Below are positions 3,388 to 12,849 of a DNA stretch of 12,849 bases, in pieces. The first letter of the stretch is position 1. Each line of letters begins with the position of its first letter. The DNA is taken from NCBI GenBank assembly GCA_016932965.1, contig JAFGBW010000183.1, forward strand, positions 1 through 12,849, written 5' to 3'. Under the pieces are notes generated by a model that made no database searches, was not told the DNA's origin, and saw nothing but the letters and a program-made list of their open reading frames with translations. Made by a program: the position numbers and the translations under genes. Origin of the DNA: Candidatus Auribacterota bacterium. GTDB taxonomy: Bacteria; Auribacterota; JAFGBW01.

Positions 3388-4584
3388 TTACTTATCCAAC
3401 AGCACGGCGATGCCGGGCAGTGTTTTCCCTTCTAAAAACTCCAGGGAGGCTCCTCCTCCGGTGGAGACATGGGACATCTTGTCGGCCAGGCCCATTTGTT
3501 CGATGGCGGCGACGGAGTCTCCTCCTCCGACAACGGTGACCGCATTGGATTGGGACAGCGCTTTGGCTATGGACAGGGTGCCTTTTGCAAAGTTTTCCAT
3601 TTCAAACACGCCCATGGGACCGTTCCAGACAATAGTGCCTGCTTTCATGATTTCTTCCTCGAAATTTTTGATGGTCTTCGGGCCGATGTCCATTCCCTGG
3701 TAATCAGAAGGGATGCTGTCAAAGGGGACTACCTGTTTTTTTGCGTCGTTTTTAAAATCATCAGCCACGACGTTGTCAACAGGCAGAAGAACCCTGATGC
3801 CGTTTTCCTTTGCTTTCTGAAGGAAATTTTTTGCAGTTTCGATGTTGTCCGGATCCAGGAGGGATTTCCCGATTTCCAGTCCTTTTGCCTTGAAGAAGGT
3901 GTACGCCATGCCGCCGCCGATCAGCATGGCTCCGTCTTTTCCGACGACATCGGCCATCTTGTTTAAGACGTCGATTTTGGTTCCCACCTTCGCTCCGCCG
4001 ATGATGGCGACCAGGGGTCTTTTCGGATTGGATAAAACCTGTCCCAGGTAGGTGATTTCCTTTTCGATTAAAAAACCCGCGTAAGCAGGCAGATGACCGG
4101 CCAGGCCCGCCGTGGAGGCATGCGCCCGGTGGGCGGTTCCAAAGGCGTCATTGACGTAAATTTGACCCAGTTTCGCCAGCTGAGATGTGAAATTCGGTTC
4201 ATTTTTTTCCTCCTCGCGGTGAAAACGGACATTTTCCAGCATGCAGACCTCGCCGTCCTTCAGGGAGGAAACCAGTTGTTCCACTTCCGGACCGATGCAG
4301 TCCTTGGCCATTTTGACCTGGGTCCCCAGCAGTTCGCTAACGCGGACGCTTACAGGCTCCAGCGAGAATTCAGGAGTGACACCTTTTGGACGGCCAAGGT
4401 GGCTCATCAATACCAGTTTGGCTCCGGCATCTTTTAAGTGTTTCAGGGTGGGCAACGCGCCGCGAATCCGGGTGTCATCCGTGATTTTCCCGTCCTGCAT
4501 GGGGACATTGAAATCCACTCTCACGAGGACTGTTTTTCCTTTTAATTCCGGCATCGGAATATCTTTGACGGTTTTTTTATTCAT
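3388..4584 (-). CDS. pgk: Phosphoglycerate kinase
   Basis: The 398-residue product has the usual bacterial length. It transfers phosphate between 1,3-bisphosphoglycerate and ADP in cytoplasmic glycolysis/gluconeogenesis. Landmarks are present in order: VLVRVDFNVP (19-28), the SHLGRPKG basic loop (61-68), LENVRFHREEEKN (116-128), YVNDAFGTAHRAHAS (143-157), IIGGAKVGTKID (194-205), the WNGPMGVFE segment (320-328), VVGGGDSV (351-358) and STGGGASLEFLEGK (374-387), which closes the nucleotide site. The start is ATG 4582-4584, preceded by AAGGAG at ideal spacing. An upstream in-frame ATG at 4659 would add 25 residues without similarity to the family. A promoter candidate lies about 60-80 bp upstream. 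The GHL10-like gene follows after 46 bp. Confidence 0.97.
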   Translation of the reverse strand: MNKKTVKDIPMPELKGKTVLVRVDFNVPMQDGKITDDTRIRGALPTLKHLKDAGAKLVLMSHLGRPKGVTPEFSLEPVSVRVSELLGTQVKMAKDCIGPEVEQLVSSLKDGEVCMLENVRFHREEEKNEPNFTSQLAKLGQIYVNDAFGTAHRAHASTAGLAGHLPAYAGFLIEKEITYLGQVLSNPKRPLVAIIGGAKVGTKIDVLNKMADVVGKDGAMLIGGGMAYTFFKAKGLEIGKSLLDPDNIETAKNFLQKAKENGIRVLLPVDNVVADDFKNDAKKQVVPFDSIPSDYQGMDIGPKTIKNFEEEIMKAGTIVWNGPMGVFEMENFAKGTLSIAKALSQSNAVTVVGGGDSVAAIEQMGLADKMSHVSTGGGASLEFLEGKTLPGIAVLLDK

Positions 4585-4732: not shown

Positions 4733-4826
4733 ATCATCAGATCTGAAGCGAAGGAACATTCAGTACCAAACAATAACAATTTTTAATAAACTGAAATAGA
4801 CCATTGATTTTTGTATATCTCAATTT

Positions 4827-4863
4827 CCCTCGCCCCTTGCGGGAGAGGGTCGAGGGTGAGGGG
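4827..4863. repeat. CCCTC/GAGGG palindromic dispersed repeat
   Basis: CCCTCGCCC (4827-4835) pairs with GGGAGAGGG (4841-4849) over 8 of 9 positions with a 5-nt loop. The following CGAGGGTGAGGGG can pair alternatively with the same left arm. Its form is that of the common intergenic CCCTCTCCC-GCAAGGG repeat family. It is not followed by a T tract on either strand, so it is unlikely to be an intrinsic terminator. Confidence 0.6.
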
Positions 4864-4981
4864 AATGGATATCCTGTATATTCCGTCTGAAAATGAAAGG
4901 AATTCCCACTGCCGCTTTCATCCGGAAAATTATTCGGAGGGGTTTGATGCGACGTCATGCCTCCTTTTGGTGAAGCCAAGG

Positions 4982-7900
4982 TCAGGCTCCTTGTGAAACG
5001 ATTCGGTCCGGACGAAGCTGAGGAGTTTGCGGCGAAGGCTGTTTTTGATTTATTTCGAGTGATTCCAGTTCAGCTCTGAGGATCGAATCAATCAGGTTTT
5101 GGACGGCGGATTTTTCTGTTTTTGAATCTCGGATCACTTCCTGTGTGGACCTGAGGTCTTTTCCATGTTCCAATCTGTAGGCCTTGCGGTCCATTTCAAG
5201 TCTGATCAAAACAGAAAGACTTTTGGGATCGTTTTTCAAAAGATGTTCCAGCAGTTTTTCACCGATGAAAAGCGTGCTGCCTTTGGCTTCACCGTAATGG
5301 GCGTAACTTTTACCTTTTTCATTTCCTGCCACAGACAACAGATCCTGCAGGAGCACCAGCCGGGTTTCGCCAAACAGTTTTCGTACGGATTCATCCAGAG
5401 TCAGATAAATGCCGTCTCCTATCGTTCCATTCATGAATTCTTTCATGAGGGTCACGATTTCAGGTTCAGGTTCAGCTGAAGGGAGTCCTGTATTTAACGT
5501 GTCCGGTTTGAAACTTTTAACTGTTCCGTGTAAACGGGTTTCACCGGGCTGCAGGTTTGCCTGATCCAGTCTGGCTGATATCCGGGTTCCGGCTGTTTCA
5601 TTTGATATCCCTTCCGTCCCGGCTGGTTTTCCATCAGGCGTTAGAGAAAAATGTCCTTTGAGTTCTTCCAGGTTGATCTGGCCGGGAAGATCCTTGCCGC
5701 CGATATGAAAATAATCCGTCACATCGCCGACCGGAACATAGCCCAGCCCCCGGTTTCTGGCCTCCATGATTTTGGCAACGGCTTCAGCCACATCATAGGG
5801 CCTGTCCTCCCGGATGCGGATGAAATGCTGCCCCTTTTCTTTAAATGCCTGGACAGGGGATGCTCCCTCGCCAAAACCAATGGCAAAGATTTCAACCCCG
5901 GCCTTGCGGTACATCTCAAGAACTGCTTTCAGCTCAGGGGTCTGTTGTGTGCCGGATATCGCCCCGTCCTGACCGTCAGTGAACAATACAAGAGTTTTGT
6001 TTTTTGCCCGCCGGACTTCAGGGCGCAGATGAGAGCCGGTAAAATCCGATAATTTTTCCTTCAATGCTTTCAGCATATCGTTCCCGTTGTGACCCACCTG
6101 TTTGCCCATGGCGACACATTTTGATTTCCATTGTTCCTGGCTGTAAAATCTTCCCATTTCACAGACTGTGACCGGAGGCTGATCCGTGTAAAAGGACATG
6201 TCATAGAAGAAATGTTTTGGCGCTGCCTCCCTCCATTTTCTGCAGTTATCGCCTATGCATTTGACCGCATAGCCCATTTGTTTTGTAAAGGGGCTGAGGC
6301 TTCCGCTGAAATCTCCCAGGAACATGAAGGCATGGGGGGACATGTCCCATACCTGAAAGCGTTTGATCAATGCGTCCTGCTGTTTCAGCATGGCGCGGTA
6401 GGGATCGATCTCAAGCCCGGTCCTGCTTCTGACCGTGAGAGTCTTTTTTCTGGCACGGATGCTGTTTAACCCCCTTTGAAAGACAGCATTCGCATATCCT
6501 TGTCCGTTCAGCCCCATTTTTTCATATTCATCATTTGAGGCTTCAATTCTATTTTCAATTTCCTCCGCTGTTTTTCTGGATTTCTCAAAATCCCGGATCC
6601 GGTCCTGTTCCCTTCTTTTTTCAACATCTTCAGGAAGGTTCTGCGGGGTCTGATGAGTCACTTCATCCGAGCCTTCGTTCCGGGTGACCTGGATTTCCTG
6701 TGCAGCCCCTCCCTCGACTGTTTCTATCTCCACCTCAATTTCACCATCCACTCCCTGCATCAATTCAGCGTATTCGCTCTCTCCTTTTCCTGTTCCGGCC
6801 TTCTGTTTATAAGAACCCTTGTTCCCGCTGGCAAGATAGGACGGATGGTCGTACAGATAACAGGCGATCTCTTCCAATTGTTCATCACCTAACGTACGGA
6901 CAATTTCTGTGACTTTTGAAATGTCAGCAGAGTCGAATGCATCGCTTATCTGCGGAGCATAACCGTCCCGCTGTTCCATTTCCCATAAACGAAGAAGAAT
7001 CCCGTTTAATATTCCCTTGGCTGCCTGGGTATAATAGGATTTGGGATCTTGGGCCAGCCAGGGGATCAATGAATTTTCAAGATATTGTTTTTTCCCCTGA
7101 CTGTGCATGAGAGGGGAAAGCATGGAATTCAATTCAATATTTTTCGGGACTATCCTGCCGGGACTTGTGTCATTTCTGTGACCCAGTTCATGATGCGCCG
7201 TCCATTCGGTCTGAAGGGAATCTTTCCCTCCATTTTTGGAGGCATCCACCAGTGCAAATTCTCCGTCAAAATAGCCCAGTTTTGTCCCTTTTTCCAGGCC
7301 CTTGCCCTCAATAACAAATGCTTCTCCGCTTGTTTCCCATCCGGGTTTGTGGGAGAGCGTGATCTTCTTTAATATTTTGTTCGGGAATAAATGCAAAAAC
7401 CGGGTTGTCCGGTTTCCCGGTTTGCTCATGAAAACAACAATATGCCTGTCAAACGGAATGAACTTTTTTCTGAATTCCAATATCGCGTATTTGATGAGGT
7501 CCTTTTGGGGATAAATATAGGAATACTGGGTCTGAATGTATTCCAGAAGTTCTTTGAGTGTGGAAGCACCTTCCGGTATCCCCATCTGTTTATCCAGTTC
7601 TTCAGCCATGGCCAGGAAATCCTGATTGAACCGGGCCCCGTCCCGGTTGGCCAGGGCGCGCATATAATGGGAAAGTCCTTCCAGAAAAACATCTATTTTA
7701 TTGTTTGGATCTTCGGCATCGATCAGTTTGGGAGCGGCATGAAATTTTTGTGCGGTTTCAGAAATGAGATTGGAATCATAGTCGATCTCCTTGATATTGA
7801 CCGGAGCTTCAACAGGGGGAACATGGGGGCGTTTGGGGGCAGGAGGGATGATTTCTATTTTTATTTTGCCCCAGACTCCCCAGAACGTTTCTGTGATAGA

Positions 7901-10900
7901 GGGCCTGTCTTTTTTTTCCGGCAGTTCCATCCAGGCAACGATCATTTTATCCAGAATCCTTTTGTCTATGGCGTCCCGCCCTGAGAAGGAATCCGGATTA
8001 AAGGTGAATACGAGCTGGACATTGGGGCCTATCTCAAAGGGTTCTTCACCGGGAAACATGGGAGAGATCCTTTTTTCCCCTCTCAAGATAGGTTCCAGGA
8101 TCCACAGGATTTCAGGCCTGATATTGGCCTCGTCTATGTCAATGACCACATTTCCTTTTTTGAGCCAGTCATAGAGTTCCTTGGTTCTTTTATGAAAGGT
8201 TTCGTCAATGGACTGCTCAATGTCAAAGGTCCAGTCTTCTGTCCGGCTTTTTTTATGGCACTGGTATTTATAATATTCCATTCCCTTTAGAGCGGCATAA
8301 TGTGCCGTCAGGGTGGTCTTGACCGCTCCGGGCTCTCCTATAAAGGCGACGGCTTTTCCTGTTTCGCCTGCGCGGGAGAGCACTTCCAGCCCGAGCCTGG
8401 GAGCGGTTCCGCTGTATGAGATCCGGTCTTTTTCCGGCATTTCCAACGGGGTTTTTGCGGTTTCTGACGGGTAGAAAGGCACGCCTCCGACCGAGATGAT
8501 TTTTCCGTCAATATTCCCCGTTGTGGTTTCCAGTTCATGCTTCAGCTCGGGTTTTTCCGCTAAACCGAGTGTGTCTTTGAGAATCTCCCTGAAGTATTCA
8601 AAATCCTCTTTTTTGAATCTGGAACCGATGATCCGCAGGGCCTCGGTACTGATCAGGTCCCGGGTCAGCTTCTGCAGTTCCTCAAAATCCGCTTTTTTAT
8701 CAGGCGGCGGTCCGTGGAAAAGCATGGAATCCAAATCCCTGCCCAGTCTGATGTTGAGCTCATCAATTTTTTTATTCTGCAATTTGGCTTTTTGAATGCA
8801 TTCGGCGAGTGTGTAAAAAATCGTAGGGCTTAAGTCATACGTCTGTTCCGCGAACCAGCGGTTTGCCGTTTCGGCTGAATCGATCTGCATGAGGGCTGAA
8901 TACAGGCGGCACAGAAGAAGCGCTTCTTCGAGATTCAGCCCGTATTTCCGGACAAGCACGGTTTCAAAATCAGAGAGTTTTTTTGCGTTATGATGATAAA
9001 TTAAAAATTCGGCATGGATCTTGTCCTGCTGTATCCCGGACGGTTCTTTCGGAAAATGTTCGGGATTGAAGTCCGGATTCCATTTATAATGACTGCCTTT
9101 TGCATCCATTGGGAGAAGAACGTTTTCCCGGACAAGAGCCAATAGTTTCTCCTGTCTGACGGTCTGTTCTCCGGAAAGCATGTTAAGGATATCGTATTTG
9201 CTGTAGATGCCGGAGGCAGGGGGGTCTTCGCGGGGAACGCCGAGCTTGATCCACCGGTTGAAAAACGCGCTGGAAAAATCCTGCACGGAATCGGAGGCGA
9301 TTTCCGCGATGAAATGGATATGCGGGGGACGGATGAATTTTTTCAGTCTTCCATCCCCCATTTCGATTTCGATGAATCCGTCCTCTAAAAATCCGTTCAA
9401 AGCGGTTCGCAAATCCTCGCTCCAGAGGTCGATGTTTCTGATCCAGATCGTTTTGGGTTCCGGAGTTGTTTTGGATGTTTTCATCTCTTCATATTCTTCT
9501 TCTGTCATGAGATGCTGGGTGATTTTACCGAGGATAAACCCAATATCCGTTGTGGATGGCTTTCCGTGAAAATCAGGAAAGAGCCCGCCCAGGGTTTCAA
9601 GCCTTGAATGATCGGGGGTCGCGTCAATGACGCAGAGGGAGGAATGCATGTCGGAACAGATTTTTTCGATGAGTTCATGGGTGCGGGAGCCTTGTTCATT
9701 GATGAATAAAACCGGCTCTCCTGACTCCATGCTGAGTTTGGCGATAAAAGCCTGTTCCAGCTCATTATCTGTAAAAAGCTGTTCCTGTGTTTTGGGATGG
9801 AACGCGGATTTCTTGAGGGTCTGGAATTTTTCTTCCAGTCTGGGAAGGCTTCCCGGTTCGATCCGTTCGATCGTTTTTCCTATCAGTCGTTCCACCTCAT
9901 TTTTTTCCCAGGTGTGCGAGAAAAAGGACTCATACACGATCCGCAGAGAAACATAATAATTGAACAACGGATCATTGTCTTTTTCGTTTGACCATTGAAA
10001 CAATTTGGCGGCCCTTCTGATTTCACGTTTGGAGATGTAATGCCTGTCCGTATCATCCAGCCCAAGGTCAGTGCCGATCCTTTTTTTCAATTCAGTATGG
10101 AAGGAGCTTATTTCAAGTGCCAGTTTTTCCAGCCGGGCTGATTCAATCCCGTAATCCTCCAGATAATACTCATAGAGTCCTTTCAGGGTATCCGGTCCGT
10201 CGTCTTCAGAAACCTGGATGAAAATGAGGTTGGATGCGGTTTCGCTTTTGACCACTTCGCGGGCCTGGGTTTCCCCTGGAAGGTTGTTGGTGATGATGAG
10301 CCTGAAATCAGGATGGACGGTCAGAGGAATTTCAAGCCCGGGAAATTCATGCAGCGTAAAAGTTCTCCCCGGAGTCCGGTCGCGTAAAAGAACCGAGAGC
10401 CAGTTTAAAAGCGCTCGTCCTTTTTTTCCGACCGCCCCTTCGTCAACCACAAACACGCCGCCGTGAGTGATGGCCTCTAGTAATGTTTGCCGGAAATGAC
10501 CTTTTTCGTCAGGGATGTTGTTTCTCCGGATGTTTCCGTGCGCATCCTGGCTGTAGCCGCCCACCCAGTCCGAGAGATTACGCTGTCCGTGCATCTGGAA
10601 AACATAGGAGGGGATCCCAAGGAGAAGGGCGATTTCTTTGGAAATACTGGTTTTTCCTGCGCCTGATCCGCCTTCAAGGTCAACCGCCCATCCCCTTTCA
10701 AAGGCTTTCAGGACCGAGAGCTCAACGTCTTTCAGGACATCCGTTTCCATGAGAAAATTTTTACGGATGAGGGTCTTTTTCTGTTCCTTATCCTGCGGGT
10801 GAAGAATGTCTGAAAGGTTGAGGATTTTTCCCTGAAAAGCGGTGATTTCATGGCCTTTTCTTAAATAGACCGGTTCCGGTTTTTTAGTGATACTTTTATA

Positions 10901-12849
10901 AGTGAGTCCTTTTGCAGGCTTATGGCGGGTTTCAAAATATCGGCCCTGATAATTCAGATACACTTTGTCATCTTCACCCAGGACAAAATAAAACGGCAGT
11001 CCTTTATATTGGGGACGGAATTCCGGATTAAAGAAATTTTTAACCGCTTCTTCAGCCCTGGGCATTTCTAACGACGGAGGAGGCAGTCCTTTGGGTTCCA
11101 AAAGTGTGACGGCTTCTGCTGATATTTCAGAGACGTTGTGCCCGACTCCGGTTGCGGCATTGATGAAGGTTCCTTTTTCTTTGTCAGCCATGATGCATTT
11201 TTGATTAAGCAAAATGGTGTTTATTTCACCCTTATCACTGATTGCAACCAAAGTGCCGTTTTGGAGCACTTCAAAAAAGTTACAATATCTTCCGTAGGAA
11301 TCAATAGGAAGCGGCGGTGCATTGGGGTTGTTCGGATCAAAGACCAGTATCTGGCTTCCCTGTCCCATCATTGATCTGGACATCACTGCCAGACGCCCGT
11401 CCGGCAATAAATTCATGTGATGGATGGAATCACCTGATCCCGTCAGCATAATTACAGGAGATTCTTTGGGTTTAGCAGGGTCATAAATCTTGATTGCTCC
11501 GCCCATTCCGCCAACAGCCAGCCGTTCATCGGGCAATACCAGCATGGTATAAATCGAAGAGCCGTCCGTTATCAGAGGAACCGGTTCTGAATCAGGTTCT
11601 GCAGGATTATAAATCATTATTTCGTTCATGTGATGAGCAATAACAAGGCGATTATCCGGGAGCTTTCTTATTTCAGAAATACCGAAATGATCGGTAAAAA
11701 AAGGGATGGTCATAGGATCTGCCTGTGGATTGTGAAGATCATAAATCAGCATTGCATCTATGCTTTTATTCGCAATAAGTTGACCCAGGGGATATTGAGG
11801 TGATGGAGGAAGCACTTCCAAACGATATATTTTCTTATTGATCTTATTGAAGTAAACAGGGGGATTGATAGGAGCTTTCAAGTCGTAGATGTATATTTCA
11901 CCATGATCATCCCCTATAGCCACACAGATAGAGCCATCGGGCAGCCTCTGCATGGCTGTGATTTTTTTTCCTAAAGAAACCAATGATATCGGTTCTGCTT
12001 TTGGATCCGCCATGTCATAAATTTTTATTCCGCCATCAACGCACCCCACAACAAGAGCTCCATTGGGATATTGTTTTGAAGATGGTAATGTCATGGTTAT
12101 AGACACCATATGACCGTCTGCCTCTTGAATTTTTTCCCTGATCCATTCTTTTTCAAACACCATGCCCTGTTCCAAGTCAGGTTTGTTTAGTGTTGCCTTT
12201 TCCTCCCAATCCTCAGGATCTGGATGCGCGTTCACGATGCGGGATATGGATTGGGCCTGGGGAAGTTTTTGTTCAGACCTGGTCTCGTCGGCTAATCTGT
12301 CGATTTTTTCCTTCAGCTCCTCCTGCCAGGGCCTGGGGGACTTGGGTTCTAAAAGTGTGACGGCTTCTGCCGGTATCTCAGAGATGTTGTGCTCGACTCC
12401 GGATGCGGCATTGATGAAAGTTCCTGCTTGTTTATCCGCCATGATGCAGGTGGAATCCAATGTAATGACAATGATTTCGCCTTCCTCTCCAGCCACTGCC
12501 AGCTGATTGTCTCCAACAAGCTGCATGGAACGGACATTTTTTCCATATGAGCCAACTGTAGTGGGTTGGGTTTCCTTGGGCTGATTCAGGTCATAGATTT
12601 TGATCTCTCCTCCATCTCCAGCCACAGCCAGACGGCCTTTTGGGAATTCATTTGTAACAGGAAGCATTTGCATGGAATAGACAAAATCTCCATAAGGGAC
12701 AAGTGAGGTTGGCTCTTTATCAGGGTGATTGAGGTCATAGATTTTGATCTCGCCGCTTTGACCAACTACAGCCAGACGGCCTTTTGGGAATTCATTTGTA
12801 ACAGGAAGCATTTGCATGGAATAGACAAAATCTCCATAAGGGACAAGTG
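4982..12849 (-). CDS. Giant midasin-like protein: beta-propellers, three AAA+ modules, zincin-like motif, VWA domain (5' end outside window)
   Basis: The frame is open from the right edge to the TGA at 4982-4984, at least 2621 codons (over 285 kDa). Residue 1 here is the Met at 12817; 10 complete codons precede it and the true start is outside the window. Order: propeller blades (to 120), cap motif CIMADK..LLEPK (124-159), helical linker (160-235), a seven-bladed propeller (236-540), a second cap (541-576), a small region (577-689), AAA-1 (about 690-870), AAA-2 (about 1030-1196), a helical region, AAA-3 (about 1470-1640), a helical region, a zincin-like HELGH (1876-1880), an acidic/charged linker (about 2010-2100), a VWA domain (about 2160-2356) and a helical tail. 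AAA-1 has the midasin/dynein (AAA_5) pattern, including WVGGYS after the Walker A helix. No signal peptide or membrane span is visible in the window, so a cytoplasmic remodelling machine is likely. Related bacterial systems normally split MoxR ATPase and VWA into separate genes. Target and biological role are unknown. It seems monocistronic in view. Confidence 0.9.
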   Translation of the reverse strand, partial: LVPYGDFVYSMQMLPVTNEFPKGRLAVVGQSGEIKIYDLNHPDKEPTSLVPYGDFVYSMQMLPVTNEFPKGRLAVAGDGGEIKIYDLNQPKETQPTTVGSYGKNVRSMQLVGDNQLAVAGEEGEIIVITLDSTCIMADKQAGTFINAASGVEHNISEIPAEAVTLLEPKSPRPWQEELKEKIDRLADETRSEQKLPQAQSISRIVNAHPDPEDWEEKATLNKPDLEQGMVFEKEWIREKIQEADGHMVSITMTLPSSKQYPNGALVVGCVDGGIKIYDMADPKAEPISLVSLGKKITAMQRLPDGSICVAIGDDHGEIYIYDLKAPINPPVYFNKINKKIYRLEVLPPSPQYPLGQLIANKSIDAMLIYDLHNPQADPMTIPFFTDHFGISEIRKLPDNRLVIAHHMNEIMIYNPAEPDSEPVPLITDGSSIYTMLVLPDERLAVGGMGGAIKIYDPAKPKESPVIMLTGSGDSIHHMNLLPDGRLAVMSRSMMGQGSQILVFDPNNPNAPPLPIDSYGRYCNFFEVLQNGTLVAISDKGEINTILLNQKCIMADKEKGTFINAATGVGHNVSEISAEAVTLLEPKGLPPPSLEMPRAEEAVKNFFNPEFRPQYKGLPFYFVLGEDDKVYLNYQGRYFETRHKPAKGLTYKSITKKPEPVYLRKGHEITAFQGKILNLSDILHPQDKEQKKTLIRKNFLMETDVLKDVELSVLKAFERGWAVDLEGGSGAGKTSISKEIALLLGIPSYVFQMHGQRNLSDWVGGYSQDAHGNIRRNNIPDEKGHFRQTLLEAITHGGVFVVDEGAVGKKGRALLNWLSVLLRDRTPGRTFTLHEFPGLEIPLTVHPDFRLIITNNLPGETQAREVVKSETASNLIFIQVSEDDGPDTLKGLYEYYLEDYGIESARLEKLALEISSFHTELKKRIGTDLGLDDTDRHYISKREIRRAAKLFQWSNEKDNDPLFNYYVSLRIVYESFFSHTWEKNEVERLIGKTIERIEPGSLPRLEEKFQTLKKSAFHPKTQEQLFTDNELEQAFIAKLSMESGEPVLFINEQGSRTHELIEKICSDMHSSLCVIDATPDHSRLETLGGLFPDFHGKPSTTDIGFILGKITQHLMTEEEYEEMKTSKTTPEPKTIWIRNIDLWSEDLRTALNGFLEDGFIEIEMGDGRLKKFIRPPHIHFIAEIASDSVQDFSSAFFNRWIKLGVPREDPPASGIYSKYDILNMLSGEQTVRQEKLLALVRENVLLPMDAKGSHYKWNPDFNPEHFPKEPSGIQQDKIHAEFLIYHHNAKKLSDFETVLVRKYGLNLEEALLLCRLYSALMQIDSAETANRWFAEQTYDLSPTIFYTLAECIQKAKLQNKKIDELNIRLGRDLDSMLFHGPPPDKKADFEELQKLTRDLISTEALRIIGSRFKKEDFEYFREILKDTLGLAEKPELKHELETTTGNIDGKIISVGGVPFYPSETAKTPLEMPEKDRISYSGTAPRLGLEVLSRAGETGKAVAFIGEPGAVKTTLTAHYAALKGMEYYKYQCHKKSRTEDWTFDIEQSIDETFHKRTKELYDWLKKGNVVIDIDEANIRPEILWILEPILRGEKRISPMFPGEEPFEIGPNVQLVFTFNPDSFSGRDAIDKRILDKMIVAWMELPEKKDRPSITETFWGVWGKIKIEIIPPAPKRPHVPPVEAPVNIKEIDYDSNLISETAQKFHAAPKLIDAEDPNNKIDVFLEGLSHYMRALANRDGARFNQDFLAMAEELDKQMGIPEGASTLKELLEYIQTQYSYIYPQKDLIKYAILEFRKKFIPFDRHIVVFMSKPGNRTTRFLHLFPNKILKKITLSHKPGWETSGEAFVIEGKGLEKGTKLGYFDGEFALVDASKNGGKDSLQTEWTAHHELGHRNDTSPGRIVPKNIELNSMLSPLMHSQGKKQYLENSLIPWLAQDPKSYYTQAAKGILNGILLRLWEMEQRDGYAPQISDAFDSADISKVTEIVRTLGDEQLEEIACYLYDHPSYLASGNKGSYKQKAGTGKGESEYAELMQGVDGEIEVEIETVEGGAAQEIQVTRNEGSDEVTHQTPQNLPEDVEKRREQDRIRDFEKSRKTAEEIENRIEASNDEYEKMGLNGQGYANAVFQRGLNSIRARKKTLTVRSRTGLEIDPYRAMLKQQDALIKRFQVWDMSPHAFMFLGDFSGSLSPFTKQMGYAVKCIGDNCRKWREAAPKHFFYDMSFYTDQPPVTVCEMGRFYSQEQWKSKCVAMGKQVGHNGNDMLKALKEKLSDFTGSHLRPEVRRAKNKTLVLFTDGQDGAISGTQQTPELKAVLEMYRKAGVEIFAIGFGEGASPVQAFKEKGQHFIRIREDRPYDVAEAVAKIMEARNRGLGYVPVGDVTDYFHIGGKDLPGQINLEELKGHFSLTPDGKPAGTEGISNETAGTRISARLDQANLQPGETRLHGTVKSFKPDTLNTGLPSAEPEPEIVTLMKEFMNGTIGDGIYLTLDESVRKLFGETRLVLLQDLLSVAGNEKGKSYAHYGEAKGSTLFIGEKLLEHLLKNDPKSLSVLIRLEMDRKAYRLEHGKDLRSTQEVIRDSKTEKSAVQNLIDSILRAELESLEINQKQPSPQTPQLRPDRIVSQGA
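5750..6340 (-). other. VWA/MIDAS domain of the giant protein
   Basis: Residues about 2160-2356. AFMFLGDFSGSLSPF carries the MIDAS DxSxS motif (D2169, S2171, S2173), and LVLFTDGQDG supplies the later metal-site Asp (D2281). In between, GHNGNDMLKAL stands where many VWA domains have the metal-binding Thr, here seemingly replaced; this spacing recalls the midasin and cobaltochelatase (CobT/BchD) VWA group. Four cysteines (C2187, C2192, C2219, C2234) lie between the two metal motifs. In related machines this domain docks substrate or adaptor onto the AAA ring through the metal. Confidence 0.85.
7058..7465 (-). other. Zincin-like HELGH region of the giant protein
   Basis: Residues about 1785-1920. 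TAHHELGHRND contains HExxH (H1876, E1877, H1880; bases 7178-7192), the zinc-binding helix of many metallopeptidases. It follows a glycine- and beta-rich stretch (KGTKLGYFDGEFALVDASKNGG) and is followed by IELNSMLSPLMH. A third ligand is not certain; E1895 or H1905 are candidates. The order metallopeptidase-like region then VWA is the same as in DUF2201 proteins, which are partners of MoxR ATPases. Peptidase activity is inferred from the motif only. Confidence 0.5.
7898..8410 (-). other. AAA+ module 3 of the giant protein
   Basis: Residues about 1470-1640. Walker A is GEPGAVKTT (1494-1502), Walker B is VVIDIDEAN with D1562 and E1563 (bases 8129-8134), and sensor 1 is FTFNPDSF with N1607. The segment FSGRDAIDKRILDK occupies the arginine-finger region of MoxR-type ATPases. 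All residues for ATP binding and hydrolysis are present. Confidence 0.85.
9230..9730 (-). other. Degenerate AAA+ module 2 of the giant protein
   Basis: Residues about 1030-1196. The P-loop position reads INEQGSRTHEL, with Arg1045 where the Walker A Lys is expected, and the Walker B position reads TIWIRNIDLW, with Leu1131 in place of the catalytic Glu. LETLGGLFPDF matches the position of the GGY loop in AAA-1, and FFNRWIK (R1188) has the form of the family's arginine finger. The fold is therefore inferred to be AAA+ but hydrolysis is unlikely. It may still complete the active site of a neighbouring module. Confidence 0.7.
10208..10750 (-). other. AAA+ module 1 of the giant protein (dynein/midasin-related)
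   Basis: Residues about 690-870. Walker A is EGGSGAGKTS (715-724; core bases 10649-10672), Walker B is VFVVDEGAV with D792 and E793, and sensor 1 is LIITNN (840-845). LSDWVGGYSQDAHG after the P-loop helix is the AAA_5 hallmark also seen in midasin. The expected arginine-finger position (SETASNLIFIQV) has no Arg, so a finger from another module would be needed. A helical lid continues to about residue 980. Confidence 0.9.
11090..11197 (-). repeat. Cap motif copy 2 (after the complete propeller)
   Basis: The 36 residues from CIMADKEKGTFINAATG to LLEPK (541-576) are 30/36 identical to copy 1 at 12341-12448, at an offset of exactly 1251 bp (417 codons). Its position at the end of the last blade suggests it closes the propeller and leads into the AAA part. 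Confidence 0.85.
11162..12112 (-). other. Complete seven-bladed beta-propeller of the giant protein
   Basis: Residues about 236-552. Seven repeats of 41-48 residues share the pattern of a short hydrophobic strand, LPDG or a similar turn, RLAV or similar, and a closing strand such as IKIYDP followed by a Pro/Asp loop. Blade closers seen are IKIYDMADP, IYIYDLKAP, MLIYDLHNP, IMIYNPAEP, IKIYDPAKP, ILVFDPNNP and a final INTILL. Seven is the usual closed-ring number. It is WD40-like in length but lacks strict WD dipeptides, so the exact propeller family is open. Confidence 0.7.
12341..12448 (-). repeat. Cap motif copy 1 (after the partial upstream propeller)
   Basis: Residues 124-159 begin CIMADKQAGTFINAASG and end LLEPK. 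The copy differs from copy 2 at only six residues. It is followed by a helical, charged linker (WQEELKEKIDRLADE and onward) instead of the AAA region. Confidence 0.85.
12419..12849 (-). other. C-terminal blades of a second, truncated beta-propeller
   Basis: Three blades are visible, closing with IKIYDLNHP, IKIYDLNQP and IIVITLD. The last has the same shape as the last blade of the complete propeller and is followed by the same cap, so this is inferred to be the end of another seven-bladed ring whose first blades lie outside the window. Confidence 0.65.
12624..12849. repeat. 144-bp tandem repeat of propeller blades
   Basis: Bases 12624-12705 are identical at all 82 positions to 12768-12849, a shift of exactly 144 bp (48 codons), and the second copy is cut by the window edge. 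Each unit encodes one blade including QMLPVTNEFPKGRLAV. Bases before 12624 match at the same shift only partly (the GATTGAGGTCATAG region versus GATTCAGGTCATAG), so the identity has a sharp border. The array probably continues to the right. Confidence 0.95.

Follow-up and report, generated by a model that had tools for sequence, protein, structure and literature searches.

The window, a stretch of 12,849 nucleotides, corresponds to the whole of contig C262 from genome G000, a metagenome-type assembly of 3.14 Mb in 300 contigs. Its reverse strand carries one giant open reading frame that runs off the contig (Table 1), and Pfam assigned the other genes in the window to a TadE-like protein, a class II aldolase, a GHL10 glycosidase and phosphoglycerate kinase (PGK). 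As the first-pass annotation had stated for the surroundings of the giant gene, the window contains neither a MoxR nor a VWA gene apart from it, and Rfam gave no match there. The spacer between the giant gene and the PGK gene (4737-4979) encodes, outside any gene, a PSPSTLSRKGRGK-like string that resembles a repeat apparently inserted in a giant frame of another genome (G012:C54, see below). With respect to the giant gene itself, the first-pass annotation had described one frame of at least 2621 codons encoding propellers, three AAA+ modules, a HELGH motif, an acidic linker and a VWA domain. The open frame and all of these motifs were found, and HELGH and the DFSGS motif of the VWA domain were located.

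Table 1. Features of the giant reading frame in the window (aa, residues of the translated frame).
Feature	Position (nt)	Strand	Basis
Giant ORF, 3′ half of a longer gene	4982..12847	-	2621 codons + stop, 5′-open at contig end
Truncated WD40-like propeller repeats, aa 1-165, putative end of the array begun on C29	12353..12847	-	Pfam propeller models; similarity to C29 propellers
Inter-propeller linker RPWQEELKEK..DPEDWEE..LNKPDLEQGMVF, aa 171-235	12143..12337	-	Five homologous copies on C29
Second propeller, aa 236-600	11048..12142	-	Pfam; similarity to C29 propellers
AAA4: P-loop GGSGAGKT aa 726-733, Walker B VVDEGA aa 800, without Arg finger	9818..10780	-	Pfam AAA_5; ortholog is module 4 of G012:C21
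AAA5, degenerate: without P-loop or Walker B acids; Arg-finger-like FFNRW (R1198) retained	8978..9775	-	Profile alignment
AAA6: Walker A GEPGAVKT aa 1504, Walker B IDIDEAN aa 1569, without Arg finger	7778..8455	-	AAA_5 E 2.9e-13; ortholog is module 6 of G012:C21
Zincin-like domain: HELGH aa 1886-1890 (nt 7178-7192) and conserved NIELxSM	6848..7450	-	Motif conservation in relatives
Acidic low-complexity linker, aa 2018-2110	6518..6796	-	Composition
VWA domain: MIDAS DFSGS aa 2179-2183, FTDG strand	5813..6355	-	Pfam near cut-off; homologue alignment
C-terminal module, aa 2396-2612, common to six giant ORFs of G020	5012..5662	-	Sequence similarity

The profile searches that had been proposed for the separate segments matched AAA_5 over two stretches (E 2.9e-13) and WD40/propeller families in Pfam, while the VWA domain fell just under the Pfam cut-off (23.4 bits against 23.8; its homologue in G012, with 29.5 bits, lies above it). 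Pfam recognised neither the degenerate AAA modules nor the HELGH region, and a sub-threshold match to GvpN was the only one from NCBIfam. The three AAA modules had been called canonical, degenerate and canonical. The first two calls stood, as AAA4 matched AAA_5 and a profile alignment placed the motifs of AAA5 in the right register, backing a degenerate AAA. The third did not, since the Walker A motif of AAA6 has no Gly before the Lys and is hence not fully canonical. The C-terminal module, of ∼130-200 residues, recurs at 30-41% identity in six giant ORFs of genome G020 (L024, L025, L081, L082, L083 and L084), where its companion domains are unrelated, for example EPSP synthase, amino acid kinase or response-regulator-like domains. 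The majority of these six ORFs end with a conserved ..SYLRAxKxIxxMA tail. The ORF at L083:1060-7122, of 2021 residues, has a signal-like N-terminus and a complete EPSP synthase domain inside (E 1e-38).

When genome G000 was searched with the window frame, one other place was found, G000:C29:1171-9768 (+), a frame of 2866 codons that is open on its 3′ side at the contig end. In order, it encodes a hydrophobic stretch (MFKKITGYLIFFLTGIWLTF), AAA1 without a P-loop, AAA2 with GSSGVGKT, AAA3 without a P-loop, and five linker-propeller units. Both frames leave their contig ends within the propeller array, and the propellers and linkers are 38% identical between the two contigs (608 columns, E 8e-96). 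The N-terminal AAA part on C29 and the C-terminal part in the window are each present in one copy in G000, and neither a third contig with propellers nor a second N- or C-terminus was found in this genome. Furthermore, codon usage of the two halves correlated at 0.946, against 0.74-0.80 with neighbouring genes. On account of the single copies, the similar propellers, the shared codon usage and the lack of a third propeller contig, we read the two frames as parts of a single gene, 5487 codons long or more, that was broken at the propeller repeat array, with a putative join. C29 would thereby supply a candidate for the missing 5′ end, the recovery of which had been proposed. The predicted full chain shows the order hydrophobic N-terminus, AAA1-2-3, some six to seven propellers, AAA4-5-6, HExxH, acidic linker, VWA/MIDAS and C-terminal module, so that the earlier count of three AAA modules holds for the window but not for the full chain, which would have six. 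Conceivably, C29 and C262 could represent two separate giant genes that share propellers and contribute three AAA modules each to a two-chain ring; the join is indeed absent from the assembly and both frames are truncated. We consider this improbable, because each half is single-copy with no second terminus in G000, and because a relative in G012 keeps all six modules in a single frame, where their order is unchanged and each is orthologous to its positional counterpart. The gene that precedes the C29 half, at L026:3-908 (-), encodes the motif HESAHQAVGG, and its product may resemble SprA-type putative metallopeptidases.

This relative in G012 (G012:C21, JACPWU010000065.1) belongs to the same phylum as the window genome; its GenBank label 'Chlamydiae bacterium' was not accepted as the true placement. 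Its single frame reaches at least 5976 codons without closing on either side and encodes, in this order, AAA1 to AAA6, HELGH, an acidic region and a VWA domain whose motif reads DGSGS. It is collinear with both halves: its first three modules correspond to AAA1-3 of C29, and the rest to AAA4-6, HELGH and VWA of C262. A tree of P-loop module cores grouped its module 2 with AAA2 of C29 (support 98), module 4 with AAA4 of the window (88) and module 6 with AAA6 of the window (81). Since propellers are missing between AAA3 and AAA4 of G012:C21, they were either inserted in the window type or lost in G012:C21. This ORF contains three copies of a hydrophobic motif, GVLIEGLAWALHL..GILFPLAHGEG (L023, aa 1-45, 3390-3430 and 4770-4812), which flank the AAA-VWA block. 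The ORF stops at the contig edge, and another HETAH motif lies close by. In all, the window type was present in two of the 44 genomes of its phylum, and it is therefore rare or fast-evolving. A scan of genome contigs returned a G012 contig as the single relative, and a scan of viral contigs returned none. Matches in G009, G018 and G142 were rejected as ordinary single AAA proteins of 317-328 residues.

A second giant frame of the same genome, G012:C54, is uninterrupted over 6885 codons and has both ends within its contig. It carries six canonical P-loops (aa 2078, 2543, 3002, 3432, 3754 and 4292), followed by HESMH...NILEDGRIE, a region rich in Gly and a VWA domain whose motif is DASES; cousins of this kind give DYN_lid matches. 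Among themselves, its odd modules, in which a long insert precedes Walker B, show 35-39% identity and its even modules 43-55%, while odd-even pairs mostly show 23-35% identity over shorter stretches. The chain looks like a long-short pair that was tripled. A relative in G020, cut off at the contig end, is 59% identical over the first AAA pair. The G012:C54 ORF (L079) also includes in-frame copies of a IPLPRGEGLGEGE..TPSLTLPARGREL-like repeat at aa 2712-2758 and ∼4060-4090; the same repeat, at 73% identity, is found with stop codons elsewhere in G012. The first copy is missing in G020, so a repeat element seems to have entered the giant gene and left it unbroken.

Comparison of these chains revealed how the catalytic residues are distributed. 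In both genomes with the window type, the P-loop Lys and the Walker B Glu are retained in modules 2, 4 and 6, whose finger position no longer carries an Arg. Modules 1, 3 and 5, in contrast, are devoid of P-loop and Walker B and keep [ND]R or SR at the finger position, module 3 being the weakest case. In Rea1, the Arg finger of a site comes from the next module (PMC6286127). With a Rea1-like geometry, the fingers of modules 3, 5 and 1 would complete the sites of modules 2, 4 and 6, and we infer that ATP is bound at three composite sites, AAA2/3, AAA4/5 and AAA6/1, the last of which needs the ring to be closed. The modules of G012:C54 retain both P-loop and finger, so the alternating losses would be a derived division of labour. 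As the ATP-binding and finger roles appear to be allotted to alternate modules, the window type would be a natural experiment on the fewest sites that a ring needs.

The C29 and G012:C54 chains start with signal-peptide-like sequences (L026:1171-1240 and L079:4459-4640), odd for ATPase-rich proteins, and such N-termini hint at export or at tethering to a membrane. An exported ATPase ring would lie where ATP is not expected, which counts against the remodelling machine that we propose below. The protein would then be a surface or exported giant protein, a common kind in PVC-group bacteria, with AAA modules that are structural or extracellular, perhaps after proteolysis of the chain. In agreement with this idea, membrane segments lie on both sides of a module in G012:C21, and giant genes are frequent in such phyla, those of the PVC group being mostly reported to encode poorly annotated, adhesive or degradative proteins (PMC10066038, PMC12057145). 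However, the P-loop Lys, the Walker B Glu and the P-loop/finger pattern were kept at a chain identity of 23-27%, which points to ATP hydrolysis and makes an exported structural protein unlikely.

The fused AAA-HExxH-VWA layout was found in other genomes, also beyond the phylum. The chain encoded by G302:C7, 1418 residues or longer, comprises a long-type AAA, a short-type AAA, HEGGH...NVIEDGR and a VWA domain, and gave a near-threshold match to the midasin lid; the contig is cut on the 5′ side, so that two AAA modules are a minimum. In the same phylum as G302, G422:C83 and G416:C18 hold neighbouring gene pairs, in which a double-AAA gene (1127 and 1097 codons, respectively) is joined by one for HExxH-VWA (798 and 994 codons). 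The pairs and the fused chain have the same domain order as the window type, unfused or partly fused, but differ from it in that each chain has two AAA modules, so that a ring would presumably take three chains, and in that propellers are absent.

Four related chains, and two genes that stand apart, have an HExxH domain at this position, and it lies ahead of the VWA domain in every relative examined. A HELGH...NIELxSMLxPL block is conserved between the window chain and a homologue that is 27% identical overall. HELGH and the downstream NIEL are conserved and may correspond to the HExxH motif and the Glu ligand of a gluzincin-type metallopeptidase; the structural model of the HELGH-VWA region (pLDDT 36.7) is too poor to show the fold. 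The first-pass annotation had regarded the HELGH region as a possible effector and had drawn a link to conflict systems. The constant position of the HExxH domain before the VWA domain fits a standing part of the co-chaperone as well, and this is the likeliest role, while peptidase activity is possible. For the chain as a whole, a fused MoxR-VWA-propeller immune system would have propellers that sense an invader, a ring that switches and a HELGH peptidase as effector. Ternary systems of MoxR, VWA and β-propeller proteins have been described (PMC7159879), and PF20030 (bpMoxR) weakly matches relatives of the window chain. These scores are under the cut-off, however, and the window gave no PF20030 match at E 1. 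Moreover, neither the window chain nor the C29 chain was matched by any PADLOC model, the neighbours are the housekeeping-type PGK, aldolase, glycosidase and TadE genes, and an HExxH domain found in every relative examined is hardly a swappable effector. We therefore did not retain the link to conflict systems, and an immune function of this kind appears distinctly unlikely. The sensor role that the first-pass annotation gave to the propellers likewise gained no support.

That the protein is a single-chain midasin-like machine, as claimed in the first-pass annotation, gained support from searches against PDB sequences, which cover families with solved structures and nothing beyond them. The AAA4-5 profile of the window matched midasin with E 1.9e-31, a value that sums over six modules, single midasin modules giving up to 29 bits; Rix7 (4e-5) and NorQ (1e-4) followed. 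With the AAA1-3 profile of C29, midasin was found at 5e-28 and nothing else below 0.1, and with the AAA region of G012:C54 at 2e-83, followed by NorQ at 5e-8. An even module of G012:C54 matched AAA3 of Rea1/Mdn1 (70-73 bits), and the best match of an odd module was AAA2. By sequence, midasin is by far the nearest of the solved structures. The odd and the even modules of G012:C54 each formed their own group in the module tree (100), and AAA2 and AAA4 of Rea1 together formed another (98). The deep nodes joining window-type modules and midasin were without support, and there was no one-to-one pairing with Rea1. As position-by-position kinship to midasin was thus not supported, separate assembly from related stock seems likelier than a shared six-module ancestor. 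Acquisition of a eukaryotic midasin by these bacteria through lateral transfer could account for midasin being the best PDB match by far. Nevertheless, the modules of the six-P-loop cousin cluster together and not singly with those of Rea1, another phylum holds the double-AAA and HExxH-VWA gene pairs and the fused long-short chain, and we know of no midasin with an HExxH domain ahead of its MIDAS domain. Such a transfer is highly improbable.

Our best explanation, which we consider probable though well short of certain, is that the window encodes the C-terminal half of a single-chain, ring-forming, midasin-type AAA+ remodelling machine with three composite sites, a docking VWA domain and a propeller arm. 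The six AAA modules would close into one ring that hydrolyses ATP at the composite sites, and the chain is probably membrane-tethered through its N-terminus. NorQD and Rea1 served as models for the rest of the cycle. In NorQD, a finger of the VWA domain lies inside the pore of the MoxR ring and is rotated by ATP-driven steps (PMC13036017), and in Rea1 the MIDAS domain docks on the ring and pulls assembly factors off pre-ribosomes (PMC11603028; see also PMC6286127). By analogy, the VWA domain of the window chain, with the HExxH domain as the N-terminal domain of this co-chaperone, would dock on the ring and hold an acidic residue of the substrate through its MIDAS. The propellers may form a side arm that contacts partners or substrate. 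The ring would then turn or pull the VWA domain in cis against a second contact, probably the propeller arm, and separate the two. The structure prediction that had been proposed for the segments contributed little: AlphaFold with a two-sequence alignment gave no usable fold for AAA4-6 (pLDDT 39.5) or for the HELGH-VWA region. The poor AAA4-6 model nonetheless aligned in Foldseek over ∼1000 columns to dynein and Rea1, which we count as weak support.

As to the origin of such chains, we propose, with slightly less than even confidence, that bacteria assembled midasin-type single-chain hexamers themselves, apparently more than once, from a long-short AAA unit and an HExxH-VWA co-chaperone. Two genes would have given rise to one long-short chain and this to a tripled six-AAA chain; the window type would then have split alternate modules into ATP binders and finger donors, leaving exactly three composite sites, and gained its propeller arm. 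Midasin may descend from this stock or parallel it. Single-chain six-AAA rings, such as those of dynein, midasin and RNF213, are regarded as eukaryotic inventions. In the open-access literature, no bacterial single-chain six-AAA midasin-like protein was found, and as far as could be found the six-AAA midasin layout was known until now from eukaryotic midasin alone. The question of how such rings arose becomes testable with bacterial six-AAA chains, some of which have six P-loops, and with their relatives in the form of gene pairs and fused pairs.

Among known systems, the bpMoxR/VMAP ternary systems share MoxR, VWA and β-propeller parts with the window type, but there these are encoded by separate genes with one AAA per MoxR chain, and the absence of a PADLOC match and of defence neighbours sets the single window-type chain further apart. 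The MoxR-VWA systems (NorQ-NorD, CobS-CobT and GvpN relatives) likewise combine AAA_5/MoxR-clade modules with a VWA domain, to which the DFSGS MIDAS of the window chain can be compared, and GvpN, NorQ and CobS were the next-best matches after midasin. They consist of six identical AAA chains and a separate VWA protein, whereas the window type has everything in one chain. Dynein heavy chain and RNF213 resemble it as single-chain six-AAA rings with some dead modules; their motor and ubiquitin-ligase parts, respectively, are absent from the window type, and to our knowledge neither has a VWA/MIDAS domain. From midasin, the window type is set apart by the propellers between AAA3 and AAA4, the HExxH domain before the VWA domain and the N-terminal hydrophobic segment, by P-loops at modules 2, 4 and 6 where the functional sites of Rea1 are at AAA2-AAA5 (PMC6286127), by modules that are not orthologous by position, and by the lack of a recognised long helical linker like that of Rea1. 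The acidic linker, which had been likened to that of midasin, is indeed present, but with ∼100 residues (27 D/E) between HExxH and VWA it is far shorter than the D/E-rich region of midasin (∼600 residues). What is shared with midasin/Rea1/Mdn1 are six AAA modules in one chain, seen directly in G012:C21 and G012:C54 and predicted for C29 plus C262, the long/short alternation of modules, seen in G012:C54, and a C-terminal VWA/MIDAS domain on the same chain after an acidic stretch.
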